Assembly (NCBI RefSeq): GCF_009668025.1
Contig: NZ_WJXZ01000013.1
Coordinates: 124,001 to 188,000 of the forward strand
Length of the DNA: 64,000 bases
Reading direction: 5' to 3'
DNA from: Larkinella terrae
GTDB lineage: Bacteria > Bacteroidota > Bacteroidia > Cytophagales > Spirosomataceae
A program made the position numbers and the translations under genes. Each line of letters starts with the position of its first letter. Position 1 is the stretch's first letter. This document shows, one piece after another, positions 10,681 through 57,330 of this stretch. The notes beneath the pieces are model-generated. The model was not told where the DNA came from. It made no database searches and saw nothing but the letters and a program-made list of their open reading frames with translations.

Positions 10681-10762
10681 ATGAACAATGAATAATGAAC
10701 AATGAAGGGCGCAACAACTGGCGCTTCGTGTATTCATTGTCAATTGTTCATTGTTCATTTTT
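10681..10762. repeat. intergenic palindrome A (AATGAACAATGA units)
   Basis: Left arm 10681-10706 and right arm 10731-10760 are built of repeated ATGAACAATGA and its complement and pair imperfectly over about 26 nt around a GC-rich centre (GGGCGC...GGCGC). It starts 7 bases after the CBS stop codon. Its right arm carries a TTG (10751-10753) placed 19 bp before the -7 element of the next gene. Confidence 0.85.
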
Positions 10763-10780
10763 TATTAATCTTTACCTTTG
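10751..10780 (+). promoter_or_regulatory. promoter of the NUDIX gene 10829
   Basis: TACCTTTG at 10773-10780 matches TAnnTTTG. A TTG at 10751-10753, inside the right arm of palindrome A, sits 19 bp upstream as a -33 element. The resulting transcript would start near 10787, which supports the ATG at 10829 over the upstream TTG. Confidence 0.5.
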
Positions 10781-10828
10781 CGCTGCCAAAAACTATTGAA
10801 ACCATTGGATATTGCACGCGAAGAAGTA

Positions 10829-11293
10829 ATGCGGCTGTACGGCAATCGCCTGCGATTGCGGGTATGCGGTTTGTGCCTGATCGACGAAAAATTGCTGATG
10901 GTTCGGCACCGGGGTATCGGTCCGACCGACACATTCTGGTGCCCGCCGGGTGGAGGGCCTCAATACGGAGAAACCGCCTACGAGGCCCTCGTTCGGGAAT
11001 TTCACGAAGAAACCGGCCTTTCTATTGAAGTTGGCGAGTTGCAGTTCGTCAACGAATTCATGCAGACTCCCCTGCATGCCATGGAACTGTTTTTCGATGT
11101 TCAGATCGTGGGCGGTCAACTCCGGCAGGGTTTCGATCCGGAAATGAGTGCCGACCGGCAGATTATTACTGAAGTTCGGCTAATGACCTTTGACGAAATC
11201 AAAAGTTTCCCCGAAAATGAAGTTCACCAGTTATTTCGGAAGTGTCGATCCATGGACGATGTTTTCCATTTAAAAGGTTATTTGAAACAATAG
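10829..11293 (+). CDS. NUDIX hydrolase
   Basis: Protein of 154 residues. The NUDIX box reads G-x5-E-x7-REFHEETGL (from GGPQYGE to EETGL, about residues 46-66), complete with the metal-binding glutamates. The preceding FWCPPGGG motif is also typical. Such enzymes cleave nucleoside diphosphates linked to another group; the exact substrate cannot be told. I chose the ATG at 10829, because the TTG at 10778 overlaps the predicted -7 element. It is monocistronic as far as can be seen. Confidence 0.85.
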   Translation: MRLYGNRLRLRVCGLCLIDEKLLMVRHRGIGPTDTFWCPPGGGPQYGETAYEALVREFHEETGLSIEVGELQFVNEFMQTPLHAMELFFDVQIVGGQLRQGFDPEMSADRQIITEVRLMTFDEIKSFPENEVHQLFRKCRSMDDVFHLKGYLKQ

Positions 11294-11394
11294 CGACGGT
11301 CTGTCGGGTATTTTTGTACTTTTAATCCATGATATGTTACCGAATCTGGTAAACGTGTCACTTCCCACTGTACACAATCCTTAATTAACTTTTT

Positions 11395-12291
11395 GTGCGT
11401 ATCGACACCATTGCTACCGTGACCCCAACCGTTGCCATTCGGGAAGATTCGTTTGATGTTTCGATGACCGACGCCCACCAGCTTTGTCTGGAAATGGGTA
11501 AAGAACGTTTTCGGTTTTGCATCGTGGAACCCGTGAAGCGGCAATGTGTCTGGCTCGAGGACTACACATTTCCTACCCTGCTGACCGAAAGCCCGTTATT
11601 GCCTTCGTTACGGACCATTTACCAAAACCACCCGATCCTTCAGTCTTCTTACTGGAAGAATATTCATGTGTCGGTTAATTCGCCGTCGTTTACACTCATA
11701 CCTTCCGGTCTGTTTCGGAAAGAATACGCGGCTCAATACCTTCAGTTGATGCGGGGCAATCCGCTTTCGCTGTCGGAACACGCGCTGGCTTACGCGCACA
11801 AAAAAGAAGAATTTCACGCGGTTTTCAGCATCGAAAACGCATTGACCGATTGGTTATCAGCCACGTATCCCCTTCAGCAAATAACCCTCGTTCACCAGTC
11901 CAGCGCCCTGATTCAGGCAACATCAGCGACGGATTCGGTTCTGAGTTCCGCCCAGAAATTATCCCTGAATTTCGAGGATGACTCGGTAACGATCATTTTC
12001 CGAAAAGGGGGTGAATTCCGGTTCTGCAACCGGTTTTCGTACAAAAACGCCACCGATCTGCTCTATTATATTCTGTACGTCATTAATGAACTAAAAACCG
12101 AACCGAAAGAATTGCAGGTGGTTTTGTTCGGGGAAATCACGCCGTTTGCCGAAATTTATGCGTCCCTGGAATCGTTTTTGCCCCACATTCACTTTGGTTC
12201 GACACCAGCCGAATTACAACTAATTTCCGCATTTGACGATTTACCCGAGCATCGGTATTTTAGTTTGTACGGAAACACCCTCATCGATTGA
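11395..12291 (+). CDS. DUF3822 family protein
   Basis: Protein of 298 residues with the two-lobed, strand-rich pattern of DUF3822, a family restricted to Bacteroidetes (DAHQLCLEMGKERFRFCI, then in the second half QKLSLNFEDDSVTIIF and LLYYILYVINEL). The fold recalls the actin-like/ASKHA shape but no function is established. It starts with GTG at 11395; the first ATG (11464) would remove the conserved first strand. It lies 36 bp upstream of coaD; in Bacteroidetes this gene is commonly found with rsmD and coaD, but rsmD is not present here. Confidence 0.85.
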   Translation: MRIDTIATVTPTVAIREDSFDVSMTDAHQLCLEMGKERFRFCIVEPVKRQCVWLEDYTFPTLLTESPLLPSLRTIYQNHPILQSSYWKNIHVSVNSPSFTLIPSGLFRKEYAAQYLQLMRGNPLSLSEHALAYAHKKEEFHAVFSIENALTDWLSATYPLQQITLVHQSSALIQATSATDSVLSSAQKLSLNFEDDSVTIIFRKGGEFRFCNRFSYKNATDLLYYILYVINELKTEPKELQVVLFGEITPFAEIYASLESFLPHIHFGSTPAELQLISAFDDLPEHRYFSLYGNTLID

Positions 12292-12327
12292 TGAAGCGAA
12301 ACCTTCCTTTCCTTCTTCCCTAACTTT

Positions 12328-12795
12328 ATGAAACGAATTGCGCTTTTTCCCGGCTCCTTCGACCCGTTTACGAAGGGACACGAAGACATTGTTTTGCGGG
12401 GCCTGAAACTGTTCGACGAAATTTTTATCGGCATAGGCCGAAACACTTCGAAACAGCGGTATTTTCCACTGGAAGTGATGTCCACCCTGATTGAAAAGAC
12501 GTTTGAAGCTTACTCATCGGTGAAAGTGGTTACGTACGACGACCTGACGGCCAATGTCGCCCGGGATTTGGGCGCCCGGTTTTTACTGCGGGGTTTGCGC
12601 AATACGACGGATTTTGAATACGAAAACAGCATTTCGCAAGTTAACCGGTACGTGTACGAAGACGTTGAAACCGTCTTCCTGATCACCTCACCCCACCTCG
12701 CTCCCATTAGTTCCAGCATCATCCGCGAGCTCCACCGCTATTCCAAAAACATCGACGAGTTTTTGCCTTATCAGTTAATTAACAATGAAAAATGA
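12328..12795 (+). CDS. coaD: pantetheine-phosphate adenylyltransferase
   Basis: Transfers AMP from ATP to 4'-phosphopantetheine, the penultimate step of coenzyme A synthesis. The 155-residue protein has the nucleotidyltransferase motif FPGSFDPFTKGHEDI at residues 6-20 and the C-terminal ISSSIIREL motif. LRGLRNTTDFEYE is the substrate-binding segment. The last codons (LINNEK and stop TGA at 12793-12795) are written by the left arm of the palindrome at 12775-12861, so the C-terminal tail is probably repeat-derived. It follows the DUF3822 gene. Confidence 0.96.
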   Translation: MKRIALFPGSFDPFTKGHEDIVLRGLKLFDEIFIGIGRNTSKQRYFPLEVMSTLIEKTFEAYSSVKVVTYDDLTANVARDLGARFLLRGLRNTTDFEYENSISQVNRYVYEDVETVFLITSPHLAPISSSIIRELHRYSKNIDEFLPYQLINNEK

Positions 12796-12861
12796 ACAAT
12801 TAATAATGAAAAGACAATTGCAAGGTTCATTATTAATTGTTCATTTTTCATTGTTAATTAA
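12775..12861. repeat. intergenic palindrome B, perfect 36-nt arms
   Basis: The arms 12775-12810 and 12826-12861 are exact reverse complements over 36 nt with a 15-nt loop. They are AT-rich and made of AATGAACAAT/AATGAA units as in palindrome A. The coaD stop (12793-12795) lies in the left arm and the stop of the convergent NUDIX gene (12858-12860) in the right arm. There is no T-run typical of a terminator beyond the arms. Confidence 0.95.
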
Positions 12862-13556
12862 TTATTTACATTCTCCTTCACCGTATCAATTACGTACCGG
12901 ATGGAGCTGAAGGAGTTGGTGAGGGCCAGGGCGGTTTTCTTTTGATCCATCCATTCGAGCCGCTCGATGTCTTCGTCAACTTGAGGTTGCATCCGGGAGT
13001 CGTCAATGCAGCTCATCTGGTACCATTTCGTCCGTTTCAGGATGCGGTTTCCGTTCAGCGTATAGGTGTGCCAGGTCGTGCAGATGCGGTTTTCGAGAGC
13101 GGCTATTACTCCGGTTTCTTCCTCTACCTCGCGCAGGGCCGCCACCCGAGAAGATTCGTCGCCATCCAGCTTTCCTTTTGGCAAATCCCATTTGCCCCGG
13201 CGAAACATCAGCAGCATTTTATCTTCCTTGAACACAACGCCCCCGGCAGCTTTCACAATCCGGAACAGGCTTTTGAATTTCTCTTCAACGGCTTTTTTCT
13301 CGGCCGCCACCAGTGTAACGGAGCTCAGGTCGCCCATTTCGTAATTGTTGAGCAGATTGACCAGCTTTTCGATCGTCATCGGGGTTGTGTTGAGCACCAG
13401 CAAATGCCCTTTCAGCATGCCCAGCTTCAGGCCATCGAGTCGGGCGTCGATGATCCGGTCATAATCCACATGATTCGCCAGCGAGGTATCCTGTAGTTTT
13501 TCGGCCTTTTTCGCACTCTTCAAATGAATAGGCCGGTCGTCAATAAAAATGGTCAT
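12858..13556 (-). CDS. NUDIX hydrolase with N-terminal extension
   Basis: Protein of 232 residues. Residues 1-105 form an N-terminal domain with no recognised family (MTIFIDDRPIHL at the start; MLKGHLLVLNTTP; VEKLVNLLNNY-like helices). Residues 108-220 form a NUDIX domain (GGVVFKEDKMLLMFRRGKWDLPKG; box GKLDGDE-x7-REVEEETGV). The DLPKGK motif suggests a diadenosine/diphosphoinositol-type hydrolase subgroup; this is an inference. It is convergent with coaD, sharing palindrome B at the 3' end. Confidence 0.88.
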   Translation of the reverse strand: MTIFIDDRPIHLKSAKKAEKLQDTSLANHVDYDRIIDARLDGLKLGMLKGHLLVLNTTPMTIEKLVNLLNNYEMGDLSSVTLVAAEKKAVEEKFKSLFRIVKAAGGVVFKEDKMLLMFRRGKWDLPKGKLDGDESSRVAALREVEEETGVIAALENRICTTWHTYTLNGNRILKRTKWYQMSCIDDSRMQPQVDEDIERLEWMDQKKTALALTNSFSSIRYVIDTVKENVNN

Positions 13557-13649
13557 GTGCGTAGTTGTACTGCTGGGTGAATGAACCGCCGAATCGTCGA
13601 CGTACCGAATACCGTGAACCAGAAAACAAATTTAGATAAACCATTCATC

Positions 13650-13679
13650 TTTGAAGAGAAACTAAAACCACTATTTTTG
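13650..13679 (+). promoter_or_regulatory. Bacteroidetes promoter of the CNNM-type gene
   Basis: TTTG at 13650-13653, an 18-bp spacer, and TATTTTTG at 13672-13679 give a full -33/-7 pair. Transcription would start near 13686, a few bases before the GTG start codon at 13702, so the leader is very short. Confidence 0.6.
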
Positions 13680-13701
13680 CAAAACGCCAACTTTCCCCCG
13701 T

Positions 13702-14985
13702 GTGGAACTTGCAATAATTCTCTTTTTAGTCATTCTGAACGGTGTTTTCTCCCTCTCGGAGATCGCGCTCGTGTCCTCCCGCAAAGCCCGACTCGAAACC
13801 GACGCCCGAAACGGCGACCGCCGGGCCGAAGAAGCTCTCAAACTGGCCGAATCGCCCAACCGGTTTCTGGCGACCGTTCAAATCGGAATCACCCTGATCG
13901 GCATCCTGACCGGTATTTTCAGTGGCGACAGCCTCACCGATCAGATTTCGGCCTTTGTTTCCCGGTTTCCGTTGCTACAACCCTACGCCAACAGCATCGC
14001 CGTTACGCTGACCGTTATCCTGATTACCTACCTGTCGCTGGTGCTGGGGGAGCTGGTTCCGAAACGAATCGGTCTGTCGAACCCCGAAGGCATTGCCAAA
14101 TTTATGGCGGGGCCGATGAATATGCTGTCTAAAATTACGGCTCCATTCATCAGCCTGCTTGCTTTTTCCAGTGATTTGATCATCAAAATCCTGAACATCA
14201 AACCCAACGCCAGTGCGGTTACGGAAGAGGAAATCAAGAGCCTGATTCAGGAAGGTACGTCGGGCGGGGTTATTGAAGAGATCGAGCAGGAGATTGTCCA
14301 GAACGTTTTTCAGCTTGGCGACCGCCGGATTACGTCCCTAATGACGAACCGGCAGGAAATGGTTTTTTTGGATCTGGAGGCCACCGTCGAGGAAAACCGC
14401 CAATACATTATTGAACATCGGCATTCGCACTATCCGTTGTGCAAAGGGGGAGTGGACGAAATGATTGGGCTTATTCACAGCAAGGATTTTCTGGGAAAAG
14501 ACCTGGACGACCAACTGACCCGCCTGGAAGAACTCAAGCGCGATATTCTGTATATTCCAGAAAGCAACATGGCTTACCAGGTGCTGGAACGATTTCGGGA
14601 GCGTCGGCAATACGTCGGCATCATCGTCGATGAATACGGCGGTGTCTTGGGCATGGTCACGCTCAACGACATTGTGGACGCGCTGGTGGGTGACATTTCC
14701 GACACCAATGAATTTGAATTTGAAATTGTGGACCGGCAGGACGGCAGTTACCTCGTCGACGCCCAGATTCCGTTCGACGATTTTCTGGATTACTTTAACA
14801 TCGTTATCCAGAACCGGCGCGACCTGACCGGTTTTGATACCTTAGGCGGCTTTGCGTTGCAGATTATTAAAGACATTCCCAAAACCGGCGAAACCTTTAC
14901 CTGGCAGGATTACCAGTTCGAAATCATCGACATGGACAAAAGCCGCATCGACAAAATTCTGGTGACGAAGCGGGCGGAAGAGTAG
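13702..14985 (+). CDS. CNNM/CorC-type membrane protein with CBS pair (hemolysin family)
   Basis: Protein of 427 residues. The N-terminal DUF21/CNNM domain (about 1-185) has hydrophobic segments near 1-20, 58-80, 95-120 and 145-165, with ALVSSRKARLE after the first. Two CBS domains (about 205-335) include RRQYVGIIVDEYGG VLGMVTLNDIV. The C-terminal CorC_HlyC domain follows (about 345-425, with LGGFALQ). Members take part in Mg2+/Co2+ homeostasis; the Bacteroidetes gliding protein GldE is a paralogous type. The start is GTG, chosen because of the promoter just upstream. Palindrome C follows. Confidence 0.9.
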   Translation: MELAIILFLVILNGVFSLSEIALVSSRKARLETDARNGDRRAEEALKLAESPNRFLATVQIGITLIGILTGIFSGDSLTDQISAFVSRFPLLQPYANSIAVTLTVILITYLSLVLGELVPKRIGLSNPEGIAKFMAGPMNMLSKITAPFISLLAFSSDLIIKILNIKPNASAVTEEEIKSLIQEGTSGGVIEEIEQEIVQNVFQLGDRRITSLMTNRQEMVFLDLEATVEENRQYIIEHRHSHYPLCKGGVDEMIGLIHSKDFLGKDLDDQLTRLEELKRDILYIPESNMAYQVLERFRERRQYVGIIVDEYGGVLGMVTLNDIVDALVGDISDTNEFEFEIVDRQDGSYLVDAQIPFDDFLDYFNIVIQNRRDLTGFDTLGGFALQIIKDIPKTGETFTWQDYQFEIIDMDKSRIDKILVTKRAEE

Positions 14986-14994
14986 TTTTTTAAA

Positions 14995-15075
14995 TGACCA
15001 TTGACCATGGACAACCGACCATCGTCGGATGCCTTCCAACAGCGATGGTCAATGGTCAATCGACAATGGTCAATT
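14995..15075. repeat. intergenic palindrome C (TGACCATTGACC units)
   Basis: Left arm 14995-15024 (units TGACCAT) and right arm 15043-15075 (units ATGGTCA) pair imperfectly, with a GTCGG-rich centre. It lies between the stop of the CNNM-type gene (14985) and the pyrE start (15087). The same unit type is used in palindrome F at 57247-57330. Confidence 0.8.
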
Positions 15076-15086
15076 CCCAATCATCT

Positions 15087-15713
15087 ATGAGTGCAACAAA
15101 CATTGCCCGATTGCTACTGGAAGTGAAAGCGGTCCGGTTACGGCCGGAAGAGCCCTTTACCTGGAGTTCAGGCTGGAAATCACCGATTTATTGCGACAAC
15201 CGGATTGCCCTGTCGTACCCGGATGCCCGGACGTATATTCGGAATGAGTTAGCCGCGGCCATTCAGCGTGAATTTCCGGATGTTCAGGCCATCGCGGGTG
15301 TGGCTACCGCCGGAATCGCCCAGGGCGCACTCGTCGCGGATGCCTTGAATCTTCCCTTTCTTTACGTTCGGCCCGAACCCAAAAAGCACGGCATGGGCAA
15401 CCAGATCGAAGGGCGTCTGGAAGCCGGACAGCGAATCGTGGTCATTGAAGATTTGATTTCGACCGGTGGCAGCTCGCTCAAGGTGGTCGATGTATTGCGC
15501 CAGACCGGGGCCGAAGTGCTCGGCATGGCGGCCATATTCACGTACGGTTTTCCGATTGCAGACCAGAATTTTACGGATAAAAACGTAAAACTCGTCTGTT
15601 TGAGCAATTACGAAGTCCTGGTAAAGGAAGCCGAAGCGCTGAATTATATTGCCGCCGATGCCACCGATTCATTAGCCGCCTGGCGACAAAATCCGGCGGA
15701 ATGGAACAACTAG
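15087..15713 (+). CDS. pyrE: orotate phosphoribosyltransferase
   Basis: Couples orotate to PRPP to give orotidine 5'-phosphate in pyrimidine synthesis. The 208-residue protein has the N-terminal SGWKSPIYCDNR substrate segment and the PRPP-binding motif VVIEDLISTGGSS (about 122-134). RPEPKKHGMGNQIEG is the flexible catalytic loop. I chose the ATG at 15087 (MSATNIA), because the open frame upstream is written by palindrome C and is not part of the family. The Wzi gene begins 11 bp after its stop. Confidence 0.96.
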   Translation: MSATNIARLLLEVKAVRLRPEEPFTWSSGWKSPIYCDNRIALSYPDARTYIRNELAAAIQREFPDVQAIAGVATAGIAQGALVADALNLPFLYVRPEPKKHGMGNQIEGRLEAGQRIVVIEDLISTGGSSLKVVDVLRQTGAEVLGMAAIFTYGFPIADQNFTDKNVKLVCLSNYEVLVKEAEALNYIAADATDSLAAWRQNPAEWNN

Positions 15714-15724
15714 CCTGAGGGCCG

Positions 15725-17191: not shown

Positions 17192-17389
17192 TTTTTCTCT
17201 TCGGTTTTTTCCCTCTATTATCTTTTCTCTTCCAGTTTCCTCATAACTAATTCACAATCAATTAGTAAACCACTCAGGATTGTACCATACCCTAATATTC
17301 CCAATTGCTGCCAATCCAAAAGCTACTCATCATTCGTAAGACTGTCAATTATCCTATCTACAGTTAACCATTCTAAAACAATTTGAAAG

Positions 17390-24256: not shown

Positions 24257-25767
24257 GAAAACTTTTACTGCTACTTTTCCTGTGTCCTGCCATTGGACTT
24301 TGCCAGAGCCAGATCGAAATAAAGTCCGTCCAGCTCTTTACGGAAGTCGGCGGTTTTTACGGAACTGCCAAACAAACGCCATTCTGGCTACGATCGAACC
24401 AGTACGGCATTGTGCCGACCACTTTGCCTTTAGCGACCATCCGCGCCGGACTTTACCGGGATTTCCGTTTCAGCCCCGTCGACGATCGCGTTGCCAGCAA
24501 ACGGCACGATCGATTCGGATTTGGCTACGGCGCCGAATTCGTGGGCAACACCGGCTCGGGCGGAAAAACCGCACTGATTATACCGGAACTCTACGCCAAG
24601 GTTCGGGCGGGGGCTTTCGAGTTGGTCGCCGGGCGTCGGCGGGAAGTTCACGGACTGGTGGATTCGACCCTCAGTTCGGGTTCATACAGTTGGTCGGGCA
24701 ATGCACTGCCCATTCCCAAAATCCAGATCGGCCTGTCCCGCTTCACACCTATCCCGTTTACCCACGGTCTGATTTCCGTGAACGGTTTTTATGCGCACGG
24801 ATGGTTTAACAATCAGGGAATCATTCACCATTCTTACCTGCATCAGAAGGCGCTTTACGTTCGAATTGGCAAATCAAACTGGCCAGTTAAAGTCTGCGGC
24901 GGTTTCAATCATCAGGTGCAATGGGGTGGTACGAGCAATGAGCTTTCCGACGGACTGATTAAAAATAATCGATTACCGGCCAGTTTTCAGGCCTATTCGT
25001 ATCTGGTAACCGGTAGCAGCCTGGGGTATAATCCCAACGTCGATACGACGTATTACAGCCGGTTTGACCGCGAAAACCGGGTTGGCAACCATCTGGGCAG
25101 CATTGACATTGGGTTGGAAATCAGCACTAAAAAGCTGTCCATTCTTTTGTATCGCCAGAGCATTTATGAAGACGGCTCACTCTATTACGGCACAAATATC
25201 GAAGATGGTCTGCATGGAATTCGGTTCCGAAACTTAAATCCGGCTACTTCCGGCTTCCGAATCACGGGTGCCGTAGCGGAGTTTCTGTATACGAAAAGTC
25301 AGGGGGGAGTTCAATTTGAACCTGATGACAAGCTGCGGGGCCGGGACAATTATTTTAACCACACGCAATACCGGAACGGCTGGTCGTATTTCGGGAATTC
25401 CATCGGCACGCCGTTTATCACGCCCATGGATGATACACGGCCGGAACTGCCGCGCTACGGTTTTTTTGCCAACAACCGGGTTCGGGCGTTCCACACCGGT
25501 TTGCAGGGCGGTTTCGCCCGGAATTGCACCTTTCAGTTGAAGGTATCGTACAGCCAGAATTACGGCACCTACGAAATGCCGTTTCCCAATACTGTCGAGC
25601 AGTTTTCATCGATGCTGCAACTGGGCTTGCCGTTGAACCAAACTGGTTTGCTCCTGACCGTTGCGGCCGCATCGGATCAGGGCGGTTTATTCTCCAACAG
25701 CAACGGCGTCTATGCCGGTGTCCGAAAAACGTGGGATTATTACAAGTACCGCGCCCGGAAAATCTAG
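24253..25767 (+). CDS. capsule assembly Wzi family outer membrane protein (copy 2)
   Basis: Protein of 504 residues with a signal peptide (MRKLLLLLFLCPAIGLCQS). It shows the same landmarks as copy 1 at 15725: TPFWLRSNQYGIVP, AGRRREVHGLVDSTLSSG, GGFNHQVQWGG and DNYFNHTQYRNGWSYFG. It is predicted to be an outer membrane barrel that holds exopolysaccharide. The two copies lie about 7 kb apart on the same strand and differ widely in sequence, pointing to an old duplication. It is coupled to the upstream small membrane protein gene. Confidence 0.9.
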   Translation: MRKLLLLLFLCPAIGLCQSQIEIKSVQLFTEVGGFYGTAKQTPFWLRSNQYGIVPTTLPLATIRAGLYRDFRFSPVDDRVASKRHDRFGFGYGAEFVGNTGSGGKTALIIPELYAKVRAGAFELVAGRRREVHGLVDSTLSSGSYSWSGNALPIPKIQIGLSRFTPIPFTHGLISVNGFYAHGWFNNQGIIHHSYLHQKALYVRIGKSNWPVKVCGGFNHQVQWGGTSNELSDGLIKNNRLPASFQAYSYLVTGSSLGYNPNVDTTYYSRFDRENRVGNHLGSIDIGLEISTKKLSILLYRQSIYEDGSLYYGTNIEDGLHGIRFRNLNPATSGFRITGAVAEFLYTKSQGGVQFEPDDKLRGRDNYFNHTQYRNGWSYFGNSIGTPFITPMDDTRPELPRYGFFANNRVRAFHTGLQGGFARNCTFQLKVSYSQNYGTYEMPFPNTVEQFSSMLQLGLPLNQTGLLLTVAAASDQGGLFSNSNGVYAGVRKTWDYYKYRARKI

Positions 25768-25794: not shown

Positions 25795-25880
25795 TTCATT
25801 ATTCGTTATTCAATATTCGCTATTCGATATTAATGGTCTAAATATCGAATAATGAATATTGAATAGCGAATAACGAAATA
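25795..25880. repeat. intergenic palindrome D (TATTCGCTATTCAATATTC units)
   Basis: The central stem TATTCGATATT (25821-25831) pairs exactly with AATATCGAATA (25841-25851). The outer parts are 8-9-nt units (ATTCGTT, ATTCAAT, ATTCGCT) that pair with their complements in a partly shuffled order. It lies between the second Wzi gene and the convergent MerR gene. Confidence 0.85.
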
Positions 25881-25896: not shown

Positions 25897-26226
25897 TTAT
25901 GCTTCGAGTTGATCCCTTGTCGCCACCAAAAACTTCCGGATTTCCTGGAGCCGACTGATCATCTGCTTGATTTCATTTTGCCGCGATGTGCTGCCTTTCA
26001 GGTGCTGTCTTGCCCCTTCCAGCGTCAGTTTCTTTTCTTCGACCAATTCCAGGATTCCCCGCAGGTGACTGATATCATCTTTGGTATAAATCCGGTCGCC
26101 CGCGCGGTTTTTGCGGGGTTTTAGCGTCGGAAATTCTTTTTCGTAAAACCGCAGTTTCGAAATATTCACCCCCAGCATATCGGCTACTTCCCGAATGCCA
26201 TAATAGCGTTTGGTTAACTCCTCCAT
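25897..26226 (-). CDS. MerR-family transcriptional regulator
   Basis: Protein of 109 residues. A winged helix at residues 5-72 (YYGIREVADMLGV, KLRFYEKEFPTLKPRKNRAGDRIYT, DDISHLRGI) is followed by a helix that would form the antiparallel dimer coiled coil. There is no C-terminal effector domain and no metal Cys pattern. The short, effector-less MerR type is common in Bacteroidetes and of unknown target. It is divergent from alaS with a 139-bp gap. Confidence 0.9.
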   Translation of the reverse strand: MEELTKRYYGIREVADMLGVNISKLRFYEKEFPTLKPRKNRAGDRIYTKDDISHLRGILELVEEKKLTLEGARQHLKGSTSRQNEIKQMISRLQEIRKFLVATRDQLEA

Positions 26227-29026: not shown

Positions 29027-29121
29027 AATGAAAAATATCAAATGATGAATGTCGAATGTAAACTGGCTAAGCGCTCTCAAGAACTTTTACATTCGACATT
29101 CATCATTTGATATTTTTCATT
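29027..29121. repeat. intergenic palindrome E, perfect 36-nt arms
   Basis: The arms 29027-29062 and 29086-29121 are exact reverse complements over 36 nt with a 23-nt loop. Units are AATGATGAATGTCGAATG. It starts 6 bp after the alaS stop and ends 7 bp before the stop codon of the convergent small gene (29129). Arm length equals that of palindrome B though the sequence differs. Confidence 0.95.
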
Positions 29122-29128: not shown

Positions 29129-29401
29129 TTATTCATCGCGTTTTTCCTCCGGTTCATTCACCTGGTGTTCCGAACCGAAAACCGAACCGAGGTAGGAATG
29201 CTGCCAGTCTTCGACCTGACCGGGCGTTTTTAATTCTTCTATTTCGATCACCCGGTGTTTCAGGTGCGGGTATTGCGCGTCCAAATCCTGTTCAATAATT
29301 TCAACTTCTGGTTTTTCGGCCAGTTTCATTGGAATTGTGGTGGGGGTTTCAACTCCGAGTTCATCGACCCCTACGGCCCGAACTACAAACATCTTTTCCA
29401 T
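29129..29401 (-). CDS. small conserved hypothetical protein
   Basis: Protein of 90 residues, acidic, no signal or membrane segment (VVRAVGVDELGVETP, EDWQHSYLGSVFGSEHQVNEPEE). It is convergent with alaS, separated by palindrome E. No family is known to me; it is likely a real gene because it has good codon use and a defined start with a 175-bp upstream gap. Confidence 0.65.
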   Translation of the reverse strand: MEKMFVVRAVGVDELGVETPTTIPMKLAEKPEVEIIEQDLDAQYPHLKHRVIEIEELKTPGQVEDWQHSYLGSVFGSEHQVNEPEEKRDE

Positions 29402-31662: not shown

Positions 31663-32928
31663 ATGCCTTTCAACGAGTCTTCCGCACCCACCTCATTCGA
31701 CTGCCCGGTTTGCAGCACGTCCATTCCGATCTTCGACCCATCGGAAAGTTGCTATTTCGGCTGCGCCCATTGCCAGAACTATTTTTATTACGGAGAAACC
31801 GGTCCCATTGATCGGAAAACGACGTTTTCAACGCGAATGGAGCCAACTCCCCTATCCGTTGGTTCGGAAGGATACCTCGATGGAAAATGGGTTCGGGTGA
31901 CGGGAATTAGCAGGAAACGGGAAGAAAGATACGATGATCCCTGGCTGGAATATGTTTTGGAGACAAAAGAAAGCGGTTATCAAATGTTGTCCGAATTCAA
32001 CGGCCACTGGATGCTGATTCGCCCGGCAGAGGGGAAATACACCGAAGAAAAAGGCAAGAACGTTACGGACGAAGATCGTGAATACAAGCTGTTTAACCGG
32101 TATAACTGCCGGGTGCTGAACGCCGTTGGGGAATTTTATTGGGACCTCCTGGAGGACTCCAAACTGCAAATCTCCGAATACATTCATCCGCCTTATTTGC
32201 TGAGTCGGGAAGTTGGTCTGAAGGGAACCGAATGGTACAAAGCGGTTTACAAAACTCCTCAGGAAATCGCAACCGCCTTCGGATTGACCAATCAACTGCC
32301 AAAACCGCTGGGTATCGGAGCCATTCAACCGTCGCCCGCGGGTCAGAAACGGCCGACAGTGGCGTGGCTGGCTACTCGCCTGGCGTTGCTGATCGTGGTA
32401 CTTCAAGTGTTTTTTTATATTTTAAAACCGCAAAAAACACTTTTCGATCAATCTTATTCCTGGAATTCGGATTCAACGCGGCCGGGCTGGAACCAGCCCA
32501 TCGTGACGTCTTCGTTTGCCTTTGACGGGCCGTCGGCAATGGCCATTCGGTTGAGTGCCAACGTCGATAACAATTGGGTGGAGTTGCCGATCAGCCTGAT
32601 CAATGAGACCTCCGGCAAGTCGTATGAATTCACGCGAACGGTGGAGTATTACCACGGCGTAGATGGCGGAGAGAGCTGGGAAGAGGGCGCTCAGAAGGAC
32701 GAAGCCATACTGTCACGCATTCCGTCCGGGCAGTATCACCTCAATTTGTATCCGAATTCCGAAGGCAAAAACCGGTTTTACGTGCACGTCACCGTCGTCC
32801 AGAACCCGATTCTGTATTCCAATCTGTTTCTGATGCTGATTCTCATTGCCATTTACCCAATCGTCCTGTTCATTCAGCAAAACGTATTCGAGCAAAAACG
32901 CTGGGCCGATAGTGATTTTGGACCGTAA
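31663..32928 (+). CDS. DUF4178 domain membrane protein
   Basis: Protein of 421 residues. It begins with a zinc-ribbon-like CPVCSTSI ... CYFGCAHC pattern (residues 11-37), followed by a DUF4178-like region (WVRVTGISRKREE, WLEYVLETK, GYQMLSEFNGHW, about 60-190). A membrane helix near 228-248 and a last one near 383-405 flank a strand-rich extracytoplasmic part. DUF4178 is often found with SpeD, SpeE and DUF350 genes. It probably forms part of a membrane-linked complex; the role is unknown. It starts 13 bp after the SpeD-like gene. Confidence 0.85.
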   Translation: MPFNESSAPTSFDCPVCSTSIPIFDPSESCYFGCAHCQNYFYYGETGPIDRKTTFSTRMEPTPLSVGSEGYLDGKWVRVTGISRKREERYDDPWLEYVLETKESGYQMLSEFNGHWMLIRPAEGKYTEEKGKNVTDEDREYKLFNRYNCRVLNAVGEFYWDLLEDSKLQISEYIHPPYLLSREVGLKGTEWYKAVYKTPQEIATAFGLTNQLPKPLGIGAIQPSPAGQKRPTVAWLATRLALLIVVLQVFFYILKPQKTLFDQSYSWNSDSTRPGWNQPIVTSSFAFDGPSAMAIRLSANVDNNWVELPISLINETSGKSYEFTRTVEYYHGVDGGESWEEGAQKDEAILSRIPSGQYHLNLYPNSEGKNRFYVHVTVVQNPILYSNLFLMLILIAIYPIVLFIQQNVFEQKRWADSDFGP

Positions 32929-32950
32929 ACCATAAACCCTAAATGTAATC

Positions 32951-42940: not shown

Positions 42941-42970
42941 ATGGATTGGTAATGAGTTTAAGAGGGTTAT

Positions 42971-43063
42971 TTCGCGGAGTTAAGCGGAGTAAAATTGAGT
43001 TACGCAGAGTTTTTTTTATTAATTCTCCGCTTAACTCTTTTTACCTCCGCTAATCTCCGCGAA
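42971..43063. repeat. intergenic palindrome G (CGCGGAGTTAAGCGGAG units)
   Basis: Left arm 42971-43013 and right arm 43021-43063 pair over about 43 nt with few mismatches; loop about 7 nt. It is built of AG/TCCGC-rich 10-nt units (GCGGAGTTAA, GCGGAGTAAA, GCAGAG). It lies 8 bp after the susD stop codon and 30 bp before dgoD, within the operon. Confidence 0.85.
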
Positions 43064-43071
43064 ACTTTTTA

Positions 43072-44619
43072 TTACTTCTTATCCCACCAAACCCGCGTGC
43101 TCAACGTATTGGGGCCTTGCCGGGCGATGGCTTCGTTGACGTTTTGCAGGTTGACGACCTTTTCACTGTCCGGGTACGGCATCCGGCGAATAAAGTCTTC
43201 CGTGATTTCGGAGGCCGGGTATGGGTTTTTGGCTAAGGTCGGAAAACCGCTTCGGCGGAAATTGGCAAATAATTCAGGGCCGTTCAGGAACGACGAAACC
43301 CAATATTGGGTATTGATCAGATCCAGTTCTTTCCCGGCCGTGAGCGGGTGAGCCGCCAGGTAAGCCGCAATGGCATCTTCCTTGATCGCAGCTGCGGGGT
43401 CATAAGCGGCCATTTGTTCCAGATTGGCCCGAACGCCTTTGGTAAAATAATCTGCGGCATTGCCCGTCACCCAGCCCCGAAAAGCCGCTTCGGCCAGCAG
43501 CAGTTGCGTCTGCGAATACGTGACGTGAAATTCCGGTGCATCAAGTTTCAAAACCGTATTGAGGTTAACCTGCGTAAAATCCCAGAGGCTGGCGACGCCA
43601 TTTTGAGCCAAAACCGCTGGCGTCGAAACCGTTACGTTATCGTAGCCCATTGGCATCCCGATCTGCACCTTTGGGTCGGTCGACGCGCGGGAAGCCACCT
43701 GCTCCGGTCCGCCTTTGGCACCAACGTACCTCACCGCAATCGAACCCAAACGCGGGTCATTATTTGATTTAAGGTAGTTGACAAACGGAGCGGTCAGGTA
43801 GAAGTTCGTCTTTTCGCGAGCCTGTAAGTGGTTAGCAATCCAGTTGTTATACAAAGCCGTATGACGCATCACCGAATTATCGTCGTTGGATTGCATGACG
43901 CCACCGGCAACGGCTTTCGTGACGTAATTCTTCGCCGTCGTGGGGTCCACTTTGGTTAACCGCATGGCCGCCCGCAACATCAGCGAATAGCCCAGCCGTT
44001 TCCATTTGGGGATGTTACCGCCGTATAAAATATCGGTGGTTTCGATGGCTTTCGTTGCGTCCAGGGCCGCCGAAGCTTCGTCCAGTTCCTTCAGCAAGTC
44101 CTTGTAAATCACCTCCTGCGAATCGTATTTCGGCGAGGTGATTTCGCTGATGTACCCTTTAGCCGCTTCGCTATACGGAATGTCGCCGTAGGTATCCGTC
44201 AGGATCATGAATGAATACGCTTTCCAGATGCGGGCCGAGTGGTAGAGATTGGTCCGGTTGGCGTCGCTTTTCGTTTTTTCAACTACATCGACAATCTGTT
44301 TCAGGACGTTCCGGTAGAAGTTTTGCCAGACCAGGGGCGTGTTGGCTACGTTATTCTGGTTGTAATTGGCTCCGGCGAGTGAGCTTCCGTACGGCGTAAT
44401 GATCTGCTGCACAATGCCGAACTCGTAACACAGCATTTCGAGGGTCCCAAAACCGTCGAGGTAAGTTGCGTCGATGATCGCTTTGTTCATCACAAACGAA
44501 GGCGCCAGCGAAGTGGGATCCACTTTGTTGGTATTGATTTCGTCAAATTTATCGTCGCAACTGGTTAACAGACTGAAGGTTGTCAGCAAACCGAGGATAT
44601 ATTTCAGTTTTGTTTTCAT
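43072..44619 (-). CDS. susD: SusD/RagB-like outer membrane lipoprotein
   Basis: Protein of 515 residues of the SusD-like_2 type. It has a lipoprotein signal with lipobox LLTSC (Cys about 21). The mature part has TPR-like helices (WQNFYRNVLKQIVDVVE, ARIWKAYSFMILTDTYGDIPYSEA) typical of the superfamily; ATYSQTQLLLAEAAF is the late conserved helix. It forms the lid of the SusC pore and binds the oligosaccharide or uronate substrate. It follows susC by 35 bp. Confidence 0.93.
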   Translation of the reverse strand: MKTKLKYILGLLTTFSLLTSCDDKFDEINTNKVDPTSLAPSFVMNKAIIDATYLDGFGTLEMLCYEFGIVQQIITPYGSSLAGANYNQNNVANTPLVWQNFYRNVLKQIVDVVEKTKSDANRTNLYHSARIWKAYSFMILTDTYGDIPYSEAAKGYISEITSPKYDSQEVIYKDLLKELDEASAALDATKAIETTDILYGGNIPKWKRLGYSLMLRAAMRLTKVDPTTAKNYVTKAVAGGVMQSNDDNSVMRHTALYNNWIANHLQAREKTNFYLTAPFVNYLKSNNDPRLGSIAVRYVGAKGGPEQVASRASTDPKVQIGMPMGYDNVTVSTPAVLAQNGVASLWDFTQVNLNTVLKLDAPEFHVTYSQTQLLLAEAAFRGWVTGNAADYFTKGVRANLEQMAAYDPAAAIKEDAIAAYLAAHPLTAGKELDLINTQYWVSSFLNGPELFANFRRSGFPTLAKNPYPASEITEDFIRRMPYPDSEKVVNLQNVNEAIARQGPNTLSTRVWWDKK

Positions 44620-49135: not shown

Positions 49136-49157
49136 AAGCACCAAAAAAGAATAACGG

Positions 49158-50240: not shown

Positions 50241-50379
50241 AAAAAACAAAATGGTATATTTTTTTTATTTAGTTTTATTATTTGAATTTGAATGAGAACG
50301 ATGCCGGTCGCGTTCCTATCTAAATTTCATTCTTGCTACATTTGAATGACCATTCCGACCCTTAAACCTGAAATCATAA

Positions 50380-51009
50380 ATGGACGAATTTCCAGGCAGT
50401 GAAGCTCATCCCGGCCCCGATCACCAGGAGGACCGTCGGTTGTTTCTGAAACAGTCGCTGGCGCTGGCGGGCCTGACGTTCACTCCTTTCCCGTTCCAGC
50501 AGGCCGACGGAGCAGAACCGCCCCTCGCAGATGCGGACAAAATTCCTCTTTCGTTGTCGATCAACGGCACCAAACGGCGACTTGCCATCGATCCAAGAAG
50601 CACACTTCTTGATTTACTCCGCGAGCAGCTCGGCCTGACGGGCACCAAAAAAGGCTGCGATTTCGGCCAGTGTGGTGCCTGCACGGTTCACGTGGATGGT
50701 CAGCGGGTGTTGTCCTGCCTGAGTTTTGCAATTATGCAGCAGGGTAAAAAAATTATGACCATTGAAGGACTTTCGAATGGCACGCAACTGCATCCCTTGC
50801 AGGAATCGTTCATCAAACACGACGGTTTCCAATGTGGGTATTGCACACCCGGCCAGGTGATGTCGGCGGTTTCGTGCATCCGCGAGGGCCATGCCAACTC
50901 GGAAGCCGAAATTCAGGAATACATGAGCGGTAACCTGTGCCGGTGCGGAGCTTATCCAAACATCGTAAAGGCTATTATGGACGTCAAAACCGGAGGCCAA
51001 GCCGTATGA
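50380..51009 (+). CDS. 2Fe-2S subunit of a periplasmic aldehyde oxidase (PaoA/YagT-like)
   Basis: Protein of 209 residues with a twin-arginine signal (EDRRLFLKQSLALAG, Arg19-Arg20), as in E. coli PaoA, so the complex is likely exported folded. Two 2Fe-2S clusters: CDFGQCGACTVHVDGQRVLSC near 87-107, and CGYCTPGQ plus CRCGAYPN in the C-terminal helical part. It passes electrons from the molybdenum subunit towards FAD. Its stop overlaps the next start (ATGA, 51006-51009). Confidence 0.93.
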   Translation: MDEFPGSEAHPGPDHQEDRRLFLKQSLALAGLTFTPFPFQQADGAEPPLADADKIPLSLSINGTKRRLAIDPRSTLLDLLREQLGLTGTKKGCDFGQCGACTVHVDGQRVLSCLSFAIMQQGKKIMTIEGLSNGTQLHPLQESFIKHDGFQCGYCTPGQVMSAVSCIREGHANSEAEIQEYMSGNLCRCGAYPNIVKAIMDVKTGGQAV

Positions 51010-52004: not shown

Positions 52005-52016
52005 CCGCGCTTTCCT

Positions 52017-54254: not shown

Positions 54255-54291
54255 CATCGGCGAATGGCCTGTTCAAATAACGGTTCTGTTC

Positions 54292-54374
54292 ATTCGCATA
54301 AATGGATGCGACCGGCATCCGTGACGGTCCGTAGGTTTGTGGTGACCAACACAAATCACACCATCCATGCGAAT
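54292..54374 (+). promoter_or_regulatory. possible three-way-junction leader that includes the start codon
   Basis: ATTCGCAT (54292-54299) pairs with ATGCGAAT (54367-54374), and GGATG (54304-54308) with CATCC (54362-54366), giving a 13-bp stem with a 4-nt bulge. Inside lie two further hairpins, GACCG/CGGTC (54310-54314 with 54325-54329) and TTTGTG/CACAAA (54336-54341 with 54350-54355). The ATG of the next gene (54367) is in the closing stem. It may control translation, or it may be a DNA repeat. Confidence 0.5.
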
Positions 54375-55206
54375 AAAATCACTAAGAAAAGCGGTCGCCA
54401 GCCTGCTGATTGGCCTTGCGGCACTGAGCGTCACCAACTGCAAAAAATCCGAAATTGATCCGGCTGATTTGGCTGCAACTTGCAAACTATCGGAAGTCGA
54501 CCGGGGCAACGGCACCAGGCAACAATATGAATACAACGCGGACGGTTATGTCAGCAAATGGACGATCAACTTCACAGAATCCGCTGAGAAACACACGTTT
54601 GTTTATCTATTTGGCTACAACAACCGCCATCAGATAACGGGGGCAAAAATTACAATTGACGGGAAATCGCCTGACGAGATAAGTAAATGGTCGATCGGTA
54701 ACAAAATTGAGTGCAGCTGGACGAACGGCAAACTGACGCAGGTTCGGGATATGGTCGATGAGGACGTCTATTTTACTACTTCGCTCACGTACGATGCTTC
54801 GGGACGAATCACCCGCTTACTTTGCGAACCTGCCGACCGGAGTCAGACGTCGTTTGAAAAAACGTACACCTATGATGCTGACGAAAATTTCAAATACTAC
54901 TACCTGGACGATGGCGTAAAACTGGATTATGATGACATTACAGTAGATAAAACCAGTCAAAGTGCGGAATCGCTCCTGGCGAATCGGGGCCTGCCTTTTG
55001 ACTTTTTCAACCTGATTCCCTGGCGGACGTACAATCTCAAAAAATACGATTCCTATTATTTTGACAAAACCGGCAAACCGGTTTTAGCCAGATCCTACCA
55101 GATCACCAACCTCGTTAAAAACAAGCATAATATCGTCACTTCCCAAACAGTGGAAGAAGGTGGTAACAAGCGAGTGAATACTTTTTCGTTGATGGATTGC
55201 GATTAA
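54367..55206 (+). CDS. lipoprotein with YD-repeat-like strands
   Basis: Protein of 279 residues. Signal (MRIKSLRKAVASLLIGLAALS) with lipobox TNC near Cys25. The mature part has loosely repeated strands such as RQQYEYNADGYVSKW, LTYDASGRITRL and KTYTYDADENFKYY that resemble YD/RHS-type repeats, a pattern common in Bacteroidetes surface lipoproteins. Function unknown. Its start codon lies in the stem of a candidate folded leader, and a REP-like composite follows. Confidence 0.85.
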   Translation: MRIKSLRKAVASLLIGLAALSVTNCKKSEIDPADLAATCKLSEVDRGNGTRQQYEYNADGYVSKWTINFTESAEKHTFVYLFGYNNRHQITGAKITIDGKSPDEISKWSIGNKIECSWTNGKLTQVRDMVDEDVYFTTSLTYDASGRITRLLCEPADRSQTSFEKTYTYDADENFKYYYLDDGVKLDYDDITVDKTSQSAESLLANRGLPFDFFNLIPWRTYNLKKYDSYYFDKTGKPVLARSYQITNLVKNKHNIVTSQTVEEGGNKRVNTFSLMDCD

Positions 55207-55231
55207 GATATCTTGTAAAGAATCTTTATTA

Positions 55232-55383
55232 GTCGCGTAGCGACGGAATGTTTGTAGAAAATAAAGCTTGCTTATTTTACCTAGGTCGCGTAGCGACCCA
55301 ACAAAACTTTACATTAAATCGCTACGCGACCCACCTTTGGTATGCATTGGCTATGGGCTACAAACATTCAGTCGCTACGCGAC
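55232..55383. repeat. REP-like composite of nested palindromes (element H)
   Basis: Four copies of the GTCGCGTAGCGAC motif (two direct, 55232-55244 and 55284-55298; two inverted, 55319-55331 and 55371-55383) lie in a nested order. The outer pair is extended: GACGGAATGTTTGTAG (55242-55257) faces CTACAAACATTC (55358-55369). The inner pair forms a second inverted repeat. It resembles REP elements and the doublets known as REPINs; no transposase of the RAYT type is in the window. Confidence 0.85.
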
Positions 55384-55442
55384 TTATAACAGTTAGAGCT
55401 TACTTTTAATGGCAAAAAGAAGCGACTCTATAAAATTTCTCC

Positions 55443-57194
55443 TTAGCGAATAATCCGCACCTCTTTCGGACCTGAAACATCAGTCTGAATTTTGCCGCTG
55501 GCCAGTTTGGTGTGTTTCACTTTGACAATTCCGTAGGGCGTTGGGAATGTGCCTTCGGCAAACGTTAAATCTTCCAGATGCGGCTCAATTTTGATGGCTT
55601 TGCAACCCGGTTCCACCACTTTGATGCCCAGCACGTGCTCCGTCAGCCAGGGTGTCGGGCCGGACGCCCAGCCGTGCGCCAGACTGTGCCGAAAACCGAC
55701 GTAGCAATAGGCTCCGCAATCGCCGTGGATATCTTTCTGACCTTCTTTGACCAGTTCATCGATGCGGCCGGTGTTCTTCACCCAATCCAGGTTAAAGTCC
55801 TCCCAAAACGATGTAGCGCCCAGGTTGAGCATACCGCCCCAGAACTCGCGGATGTTGGCCAGAGCGGTTTTGTAATCCCCCGCCTGGGCCTGCGCCTGAA
55901 GCATGTAATACCCATAAAAGGTTGAGAAATTGTGCGCACCGTTCACGGCCAGAACGTCTTTGTTGGCTTTTTCGGCAGGCACCAAACCGGACAAGGCAAG
56001 CAAAGCCGCGCCCTGCTTGGAGTTGTTTGGATCGGGAACGTACTGCTTCAATCGGGCGACGGCCTCCGTACATTTTTTAGCCGTTGCCGGGTCGTTCAAA
56101 ATGCGACTCAGCTCCCCGGCGGCATTCAGCGAAAGCACCATCATCGACTGCAATCCGGCGTGAATGCCCTTCGGATTCTCGCTCGACGGCCAGTCCAGAA
56201 ACCGTGTTCCGTCCAGTTTTTCACTGTTTTTATCGTCAATTTTCTGAATCAGCAGATTCACCAGTTTGACCAGATACGGTTGCTGCTGTTTCAGGTAATC
56301 GAGCTTGCCATTGTGCAGATACCAGTCTTTCTGAATCAGAATCCACCACATCGAATACGTGCTGATGCCGTTCATCCAGCCGGGCAAGGGCGTGATGTCG
56401 CGCGCCAGATCCAGGCTTTTCGGCACGACTTCGTTGTACCCAAAAACCGCATTGATGGTCGAAACTTCGGGATGCATATCACCCACCCACACCAGCCGGT
56501 CGCGCTTGATGCCGTCCCAGAGGTAGTCCTGCATGTTGAGGTGGACTGTGTAAGCGCCGGTTGCCCAGATTTTATTCAGCAGGTCGTCGCTGCTGTGAAA
56601 CGAGCCGAGGTAGGGAATATCCCGAAAAACAAAAATCGCCCGTATCTCTTTCAGTAACAACTCCGTATCACCGTCCACGAGGTCAATGCGAACGAAGCGA
56701 AAACCGGTATTGCCGATTTCGAGTTTGCCCAGCCACGGCACCTGCACCGTTAGATCCCGGATGGCGTGGTCGTTGGTCGCGTTTTGTTTCGGTTCGATGG
56801 TCGACATGGCCTCACTGGCCGATTCGCCAAACCGGATGCGGACCGTGATCGGCTTGCTTTCTTTCCATTGGCCCGTCACAATCTGCAAACCGCCGTGCAA
56901 TTCCCGCCCAAAATCGAGCAGCAGACTCGGTTTGCCAGTCCCGTCGCTCTTCAGCGAACACATGTCTTTCCCCGACAGATCGGCCTGGCCATTTCCCACT
57001 TTCAGCAGTCGTTCGGCATTCCGAATGGTACCAGTTTGCCATAAAATACGGACGGGCGACAAAAACCGCCGAACCGTGGCTTCCGATTGCGCCTGCTGCG
57101 CGCGGGAGTTTTCAAAAATCGGTGGAAGCTGGGCCTGAGAAACTCCGGTCAGGGCAAGGCAAAAGAAGAAGAGAAGCGAGTACGTTTTTTTCAT
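55443..57194 (-). CDS. glycoside hydrolase, alpha-L-rhamnosidase-like (GH78)
   Basis: Protein of 583 residues with a Sec signal (MKKTYSLLFFFCLALTGVSQAQ). An N-terminal strand domain (about 30-190, including LLDFGRELHGGLQI) precedes a six-hairpin barrel (about 200-500: DDLLNKIWATGAYTVHLNMQDYLWDGIKRDRLVWVGDMHPEV; GATSFWEDFN; YCYVGFRHSLAHGWASGPTPWL). The GH78 acid/base Glu is probably in the WDGIKRDRLVWVGDM or SFWEDF part. It acts in the periplasm on rhamnose-containing glycans or a related sugar. Last of a three-gene minus-strand series with the PHP-like and HAD genes. Confidence 0.85.
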   Translation of the reverse strand: MKKTYSLLFFFCLALTGVSQAQLPPIFENSRAQQAQSEATVRRFLSPVRILWQTGTIRNAERLLKVGNGQADLSGKDMCSLKSDGTGKPSLLLDFGRELHGGLQIVTGQWKESKPITVRIRFGESASEAMSTIEPKQNATNDHAIRDLTVQVPWLGKLEIGNTGFRFVRIDLVDGDTELLLKEIRAIFVFRDIPYLGSFHSSDDLLNKIWATGAYTVHLNMQDYLWDGIKRDRLVWVGDMHPEVSTINAVFGYNEVVPKSLDLARDITPLPGWMNGISTYSMWWILIQKDWYLHNGKLDYLKQQQPYLVKLVNLLIQKIDDKNSEKLDGTRFLDWPSSENPKGIHAGLQSMMVLSLNAAGELSRILNDPATAKKCTEAVARLKQYVPDPNNSKQGAALLALSGLVPAEKANKDVLAVNGAHNFSTFYGYYMLQAQAQAGDYKTALANIREFWGGMLNLGATSFWEDFNLDWVKNTGRIDELVKEGQKDIHGDCGAYCYVGFRHSLAHGWASGPTPWLTEHVLGIKVVEPGCKAIKIEPHLEDLTFAEGTFPTPYGIVKVKHTKLASGKIQTDVSGPKEVRIIR

Positions 57195-57246
57195 AGTAGT
57201 TACTAAAGGGCACTTTTGGATTTAGGGACAAAAGTAATTGGTAAAC

Positions 57247-57330
57247 ATGGACGATTGACCATCGACGGCCGACCGCCGACCATCGTCAATGGTCAATCGT
57301 CAATGGTCAATCGTCAATCGTCAATCGTCA
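57247..57330. repeat. intergenic palindrome F (GGTCAATCGTCAAT units)
   Basis: Left arm from 57247 (units GACCAT/GACGAT) and right arm to 57330 (tandem TCAATGGTCAATCGTCAATCG) pair imperfectly with a GACCGCCGACC-rich centre. It lies immediately before the stop codon of the PHP-like gene (57332-57334) and about 50 bp upstream of the rhamnosidase-like start. Shares units with palindrome C. Confidence 0.85.

Follow-up and report, generated by a model that had tools for sequence, protein, structure and literature searches.

Seven palindromic hairpins in the window

The window analysed here is a stretch of 64,000 nucleotides (64 kb) from Larkinella terrae (contig NZ_WJXZ01000013.1, positions 124,001 to 188,000, forward strand). 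Seven of its gaps between genes carry long palindromes with arms built of short, degenerate tandem words; these are called unit hairpins below. A preliminary description made from the sequence alone had pointed them out, and all seven near-symmetric palindromes were recovered, close to where they had been placed, by an inverted-repeat scan of the window. Folding each with 40-nt flanks gave energies of -44 to -66 kcal/mol. With genes called by our own codon-usage script, three palindromes fall in convergent gaps (12775, 25795 and 29027), four in tandem gaps and none in a divergent gap. The seven are, in window positions:

10670..10769: unit hairpin, arms 10670-10706/10733-10769, 84% complementary; AATGAAC/AATGAAT heptamers, 26-nt loop; tandem gap, 3′ of the gene ending at 10674
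12775..12861: unit hairpin, arms 12775-12810/12826-12861, 100% complementary (36 bp); AATKAAN heptamers, 15-nt loop; overlaps the ends of the convergent genes 12328-12795 (+ strand) and 12858-13556 (- strand)
14992..15075: unit hairpin, arms 14992-15024/15043-15075, 79% complementary; ATNGACC heptamers, 18-nt loop; tandem gap, 6 nt 3′ of the gene ending at 14985
25795..25877: unit hairpin, arms 25795-25831/25841-25877, 89% complementary; TTCNNTA heptamers, 9-nt loop; convergent gap between a stop at 25767 and the gene 25897-26226 (- strand); Larkinella rosea is without a hairpin here
29027..29121: unit hairpin, arms 29027-29062/29086-29121, 100% complementary (36 bp); AATGNNN heptamers, 23-nt loop; 6 nt 3′ of alaS, with the convergent gene 29129-29401 (- strand) opposite
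42970..43064: unit hairpin, arms 42970-43009/43025-43064, 80% complementary; units of about 10 nt (GCGGAGTTAA), 15-nt loop; 7 nt 3′ of the SusD-like gene 43072-44619 (- strand)
57247..57330: unit hairpin, arms 57247-57283/57289-57325, 70% complementary (91% over 57246-57267/57284-57305, more than one pairing register being possible); ATNGACS heptamers; 3′ of the gene 57332-59410 (- strand)

The seven follow one design with differing sequences, and their arms are degenerate tandem words, as had been described. The proposed word length of 8-12 nt did not hold: read from the sequence, six palindromes have 7-nt units and the one at 42970 has units of about 10 nt. No Rfam family matched the window at gathering thresholds.

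Abundance and periodicity

The source genome (7.85 Mb, 22 contigs) was sampled as the window plus 20 stretches of 20 kb (464 kb in all), with a palindrome finder scoring +1 for a match and -1.2 for a mismatch and allowing loops of at most 60 nt; hairpins scoring at least 18 are called strong. The sample holds 51 strong hairpins, or about 110 per Mb, against one in a Markov-1 sequence of equal size, so the seven are not isolated. Five of them reach the score of 18, and those at 14992 and 57247 stay slightly below it; a sixth window match at this score, at 55226-55389, is of another kind (see below). Arm identity in the 51 strong hairpins is 0.50, 0.52 and 0.53 at lags of 7, 14 and 21 nt, compared with 0.30-0.31 for shuffled arms. 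Genome-wide, AATGNNNAATGNNNAATGNNNAATG with at most one mismatch has 320 matches, and its reversed pattern 9. A scan of periods from 4 to 14 nt over the hairpins of this genome and its congeners gave 7, 8, 10 and 14 nt as the best arm periods, none of them divisible by three.

In 1.50 Mb around alaS of Bacteroidota (78 loci were long enough, out of 80), the number of strong hairpins was 41, with none in the control. As this is 27 per Mb against about 110 here, the high density is not general. A hairpin of 8-nt units (GGTGGATT/GGTGGGTT) that starts at a stop codon was seen in Hymenobacter sp. M29 (L069, 19910), and the design may thus extend past the Spirosomataceae.

The same 3′ ends in congeners

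Stretches of 60-160 kb around alaS were aligned from eight further Larkinella genomes (nine in all, G000-G008); the alanyl-tRNA synthetase of the source genome is 97% identical to that of L. rosea. The 3′ end of alaS has a stem in all nine, with scores from 13 to 36, of quite different kinds: four genomes use AATGTAAAATGATG words and two use TTTACGG words, another two stems are unrelated, and the most distant genome has a GC stem of classical type with a T-rich tail. At the 12775 site a stem of at least five kinds is found in eight of the nine genomes, with none in the ninth, L. rosea having the same type as the window. The 42970 site has the GCGGAGTTAA kind in four genomes, the CACAGGGTTAATCAGAG kind in three and no hairpin in G005.

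For 3′ ends whose neighbour gene is orthologous too, 17 of 36 species pairs show an association in hairpin presence (p<0.05, uncorrected). The shared ends of G008 and G002, for instance, carry a hairpin in both species at 16, in one at 10 and in neither at 71 (p=1.2e-10), and those of G000 and G004 at 6, 2 and 19 (p=9.5e-5). Identity is below 60% in both orientations for 104 of the 169 shared cases over all pairs, and for 18 of 51 within the three closest species. The comparison of position, unit sequence and orientation among close relatives, which the preliminary description had proposed as a check, shows that hairpins tend to recur at the same ends, mostly unrelated in sequence. Across the family, 30 alaS loci were read out of 56 genomes with a match (four of them Larkinella): a stem scoring at least 12 lies near the stop in 22 and a strong one in 6, and several of the short stems in other genera carry T-runs. 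At site 102, a TTTACGG hairpin is present in G002 and G004 and absent from G008 and G005, whose gene has a slightly different stop codon.

Changes between close species

The trio G008, G002 and G005 shares about 97% protein identity and, at gene ends, 93% DNA identity. At five sites (13, 22, 56, 66 and 86, site 22 being alaS) one species has a loop similar to the other's in reverse complement, with the flanks keeping their orientation. The 12-nt loop of site 56 is an exact reverse complement, and arm differences are exchanged along with it; at alaS the two arms are swapped between species. Of the five, site 86 gives the weakest case. When the loops of the trio were compared automatically, 18 pairs came out as the same, 11 as inverted and 4 as unclear; seven of the 11 were used (13, 22 twice, 56, 66, 86 twice) and four set aside as weak (101 twice, 18, 26).

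Changes in the arms are likewise paired. The 934 arm base pairs compared in 30 related hairpin pairs comprise 868 unchanged, 35 with two-sided changes that still pair, 26 with one-sided changes (12 of them to G.T) and 5 broken; the count left out 45 out-of-register pairs, pairs below 0.70 identity and pairs with G004. About one two-sided pairing change would be expected for independent arms, against the 35 seen, a count biased by the choice of hairpins for their pairing and by several sites being counted in two or more species pairs. G002 and G005 hold the same element with an identical loop at site 35, where a 15-nt block is present in both G002 arms (one mismatch between the two copies) and in neither G005 arm.

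When a polymerase switches template between inverted repeats, the marks described are arm homogenisation and spacer inversion (PMC8604942); the same process has been put forward as a source of RNA hairpins and as a means of their upkeep (PMC8794818). Both marks are found here, the spacer inverting between fixed flanks. Since loop inversions, paired arm changes and the symmetric block are its published marks, they point to template switching, and the suggestion that the palindromes are made in place by repeat expansion and template-switched copying is supported as regards their upkeep.

Position at gene ends

Position was analysed in 1.54 Mb from the nine Larkinella genomes, with hairpins scoring at least 17 split by arm periodicity at 7, 8, 10 or 14 nt and genes again called by our own codon-usage script. 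Of 104 unit hairpins, 77 lie in tandem, 25 in convergent and 2 in divergent gaps, the gaps of at least 40 nt numbering 581, 121 and 174, respectively; the sample includes orthologous sites of close species, so that the counts are partly non-independent. Leaving aside the two in divergent gaps, 78 of 102 begin no more than 12 nt from the nearest stop codon (median 6 nt; the smaller of the two distances in convergent gaps) and 25 overlap it, which confirms the position next to stop codons noted earlier. The non-periodic hairpins number 40 in tandem, 26 in convergent and 12 in divergent gaps, 36 of 66 being within 12 nt of a stop (median 10). In tandem gaps, hairpins are close to the upstream stop (medians 7.5 and 10 nt), the following gene being much more distant (64 and 54 nt).

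Most hairpins also lack a T-run, as the preliminary description had it: the 8 nt after the hairpin contain at least 5 T at 14 of 139 ends and at least 6 T at one. The loops are long (median 18 nt). Intrinsic terminators with a T-run, by our own criterion, number 30 in the 1.54 Mb; their median distance from the stop is 24.5 nt, with 3 of 30 within 12 nt. The unit hairpins thus have the stem-loop 3′ of a gene that is expected of an intrinsic terminator (102 of 104 outside divergent gaps) and usually not the U-tract. In convergent gaps no T-run terminator occurs at 100 ends beside long hairpins, against 11 at 134 others (p=0.003). A mutual exclusion of the two at all ends, suggested by the first test (1/139 vs 18/340, p=0.019), was rejected, as the larger set has it in convergent gaps only; simple replacement of terminators is therefore not general. 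With at least 5 T as the criterion, the counts are 2/100 vs 14/134 in convergent and 11/116 vs 23/434 in tandem gaps. The idea that the units are chosen to stop all six reading frames was dropped as well, stop codons in all six being in weak excess only (51 of 88 hairpins, against 0.43 for shuffled arms).

Word types and dispersed elements

Words were counted by exact match on both strands of whole genomes, with reversed patterns as controls. The counts were:

AATGNNN: 108 in G005, 101 in G000, 91 in G002, 48 in G006, 4 in G004, 0 in G001, G003 and G007 (G008 not included; controls 0 to 5)
ATNGACN: 119 in G000, 72 in G006, 15 in G002, 7 in G005, 0 in the other five (controls 0)
GAGTNAN: 107 in G005, 93 in G002, 80 in G008, 69 in G001, and, lower, 20 in G003, 19 in G000, 18 in G004, 8 in G006, 0 in G007 (controls 0)
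CGGT words: 86 in G002, 40 in G008, 35 in G004, 30 in G006, 27 in G005, 24 in G000, 0 to 2 in the other three (controls 0)

Each word type is dispersed over the genome and patchy among species. The AATGNNN pattern is present in 50 of 101 sampled genomes of the family; another genus of the family has AATGTAG/AATGAAG units in long direct arrays that are almost pure (G085:C1, G075:C11, G020:C7).

Some hairpins share more than words. Those of the AATGTAAAATGATG type have a common loop at two sites, and the core GGCTGACGC stands beside the loops of hairpins with quite different arm words (stretches L111, L117, L119 and L124; 60-kb stretches of G002, G004, G006 and G008). In 944 kb, a single palindromic site counting on both strands, 13 of 24 occurrences of GGCTGACGC fall in hairpins, and 3 of 10 of GGCTGTCGC. 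The CCCCTAAATCCCC type has a conserved loop, is more uniform than the unit hairpins and appears at new sites; it looks like a dispersed element, and at sites 8 and 20 of G005 it is placed, with its own loop, centrally in older arms. The palindromic element CCCCTAAATCCCCTAAAGGGGACTT, which is dispersed and whose loop measures about 25 nt, was seen in G002, in G005 and in stretches L111, L116, L119, L128 and L130 of the source genome; in G005 it occupies the centre of older hairpins at two sites. A rule that the arms of one hairpin are always closer to each other than to any other hairpin was rejected: it holds in 14 of 23 and fails for short common words. The earlier statement that the palindromes are not dispersed copies of one element stands, but with the amendment that word types are dispersed, some share a loop or a loop-side core, and the CCCCTAAATCCCC type resembles a dispersed element.

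The unit hairpins vary in unit order, length and loop and have no fixed ends. Neither the fixed terminal inverted repeats of a miniature inverted-repeat transposable element (MITE) nor a conserved repetitive extragenic palindromic (REP) or REPIN (REP doublet hairpin) palindrome in near-identical copies was found in them, no search having been made for the REP tag. Eight sites viewed by eye gave no clear target duplication, and some of these sites are probably deletions. The refuting outcome named in the preliminary description (isolated palindromes, or copies of a known MITE with target duplications) did not come up, no single element of fixed ends accounting for the unit hairpins; for these, an origin from a single MITE, or from REP elements and their REP-associated tyrosine transposases (RAYTs), is not supported. 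At ten Y1-transposase loci read out of 28 matches, no unit hairpin (score at least 13) flanked the gene, and a Y1 transposase as driver is not supported. Two of the ten carry a GTCGCGTAGCGAC element instead; together with CTACAAACATT motifs, GTCGCGTAGCGAC flanks RAYT-like Y1-transposase genes in the source genome (L167) and in G005 (L173). Two further features of the window belong here:

55226-55389: REP-like element, a large palindrome with GTCGCGTAGCGAC and CTACAAACATT motifs; not a unit hairpin
32923..32945 (+ strand): remnant of three units, CCGTAAA/CCATAAA/CCCTAAA, at a place where L. rosea has a full TTTACGG-type hairpin (by eye)

Possible origin and function

We read the unit hairpins, with a probability of roughly two in three, as stem-loops at mRNA 3′ ends, kept by slippage, template switching and occasional palindrome insertion. 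Unit arrays would arise by replication slippage, and template switching would copy one arm onto the other; occasionally a dispersed palindromic element may displace the central part of an older hairpin. The link of the unit hairpins to stop codons and gene orientation, together with the recurrence at the same ends with unrelated sequence, suggests a role of the stem in the transcript. Few T-runs, long loops and stems in or by the stop codon make a classical intrinsic terminator unlikely. As the T-run is usually missing and the stem lies in or a few nucleotides from the stop, transcription would end downstream of the stem, by Rho (the gene is present in all nine Larkinella genomes) or by weak termination, and 3′-5′ exonucleases would trim back to the stem, which would then cap the mRNA. 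At convergent genes a single palindrome would serve both transcripts. Judged from sequence, such protection of mRNA 3′ ends, also suggested earlier, appears to be the best functional reading; a cap is favoured, with termination by the hairpin itself a close second.

Several observations weigh against this reading. The bias of the arm-pair count, given above, is one. In tandem gaps, T-run terminators occur at 5 of 116 ends beside long hairpins and at 14 of 434 others (p=0.57); three species have what looks like a classical terminator ahead of the long hairpin at site 66 (by eye), and many gene ends lack both kinds of feature, long hairpin and T-run alike. Moreover, 19 of the 36 species pairs, with few sites, lack a significant association of hairpin presence, including all eight pairs with the distant G007, and shared positions could arise from mere tolerance of hairpins at transcript ends.

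Among the alternatives, non-canonical bidirectional terminators, in which the long stem alone would release RNA polymerase with no U-tract, are unlikely but deserve serious thought. Such terminators would suit the location at transcript ends and in convergent gaps, where T-run terminators are rarer beside long hairpins, and the short stems, several with T-runs, at the alaS end in other genera (the 30 loci read). The scarcity of T-runs (at least 6 T at 1/139 ends, at least 5 T at 14/139) and the long loops (median 18 nt) speak against them, as do stems beginning so near the stop codon, or within it, that a ribosome terminating there would cover them. Somewhat less plausible are neutral mobile palindromes, that is, several mobile families of MITE or REP type that are tolerated nowhere but at transcript ends. 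The dispersed, patchy word types, the conserved CCCCTAAATCCCC loop at new sites, the common loop of AATGTAAAATGATG hairpins and the GGCTGACGC core beside the loops of several word types would all be expected of them; the absence of fixed ends, length or loop, and of unit hairpins from the ten Y1-transposase loci read of 28, would not. Divergent gaps hold 2 of 104 unit hairpins against 12 of 78 non-periodic ones, and loop inversion and arm copying are not transposition.

The hairpins could also be a pure by-product of slippage and template switching wherever these are permitted, without a function, which we regard as improbable. The mechanism alone accounts for the mutational marks, and heptanucleotide repeats, the most abundant class of 5-11 nt in many genomes, owe their abundance, it has been proposed, to polymerase slippage (PMC4679880, citing Mrazek et al. 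2007); left unexplained are the recurrence at the same 3′ ends and the near absence from divergent gaps, which are also non-coding and longer. Finally, cruciform or packing sites acting at the level of the chromosome, a role that had been suggested, are very improbable. The abundance of about 110 strong hairpins per Mb and the perfect dyads would fit them, and REP elements have been hypothesised to act in supercoiling (PMC3733652), but DNA packing requires no tie to stop codons or gene orientation, and the unit hairpins nearly avoid divergent gaps (2/104).

Returning to 3′-end stem-loops, a stronger form of this reading is tentative, and we put it just short of an even chance: place and pairing would be selected and the sequence free, so that what is inherited would be a folded shape at a given location rather than a sequence. 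Each species would have its own heptamer dialect, with arms copied, loops flipped and worn hairpins replaced by unrelated ones. If true, these genomes would offer hundreds of replicate natural hairpins for measuring the origin and upkeep of long, near-perfect RNA stems, with loop flips, arm copying and replacement countable between sister species, and could show how 3′ ends are set where few of them have a T-run terminator. It would also be a warning that sequence-based searches for RNA families miss structures that are kept only as shape and place.

Comparison with known systems

Intrinsic terminators resemble the unit hairpins as stem-loops at gene ends, the alaS position being common across genera; they differ in that here the T-run is usually missing, the loop is long and the stem lies in or next to the stop codon. 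Tandem 7-nt units of degenerate sequence, intergenic or within a stem, also occur in the short tandemly repeated repetitive (STRR) sequences of cyanobacteria and in the heptamers of the P6b stem of their tRNA-Leu intron, and the small inversions of chloroplast genomes are linked to stem-loops in 3′ untranslated regions. These hairpin-associated inversions have a short flipping segment between inverted-repeat arms of about 11-24 bp or more (PMC12928735), but the hairpins here are bacterial, have degenerate-heptamer arms and are of several sequence kinds per site. Quasipalindrome correction shares with them arm homogenisation, spacer inversion and multi-base two-sided changes; the cases reported concern yeast coding and RNA genes (PMC8604942, PMC8794818), whereas here the hairpins are intergenic, genome-wide and at bacterial 3′ ends.

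The TAACTGA repeats of Beggiatoaceae, cyanobacteria and some Bacteroidetes are also degenerate 7-nt tandem units between genes, but in the account cited they are direct and mostly upstream of start codons (PMC4679880), while the hairpins described here are palindromic and stand behind stop codons. For E. coli transcript ends that have a hairpin and no strong U-tract, the interpretation given is that Rho terminates transcription and the RNA is then trimmed back to a stabilising stem (PMC13289151). Stems of this kind, such as those of E. coli REP, are U-tract-free and at transcript ends, like ours, for which the same function is proposed by analogy; no conserved REP sequence is found here. REP elements and REPINs with RAYTs are many-copy intergenic palindromes too (PMC3733652; see also PMC3116915), but the unit hairpins have no fixed sequence or tag (no search was made for a tag), and the REP-like element of this genome is the one at 55226-55389. 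In a survey of 118,019 genomes, the part cited gives a bacterial enrichment of perfect inverted repeats at +50 to +80 bp after stop codons (PMC13155455), farther from the stop than the hairpins here. No earlier description of such hairpins was found in the open-licence literature. Each component has been described before (template switching, heptamer repeats, REP elements, flipping hairpins); it is their combination that looks new.

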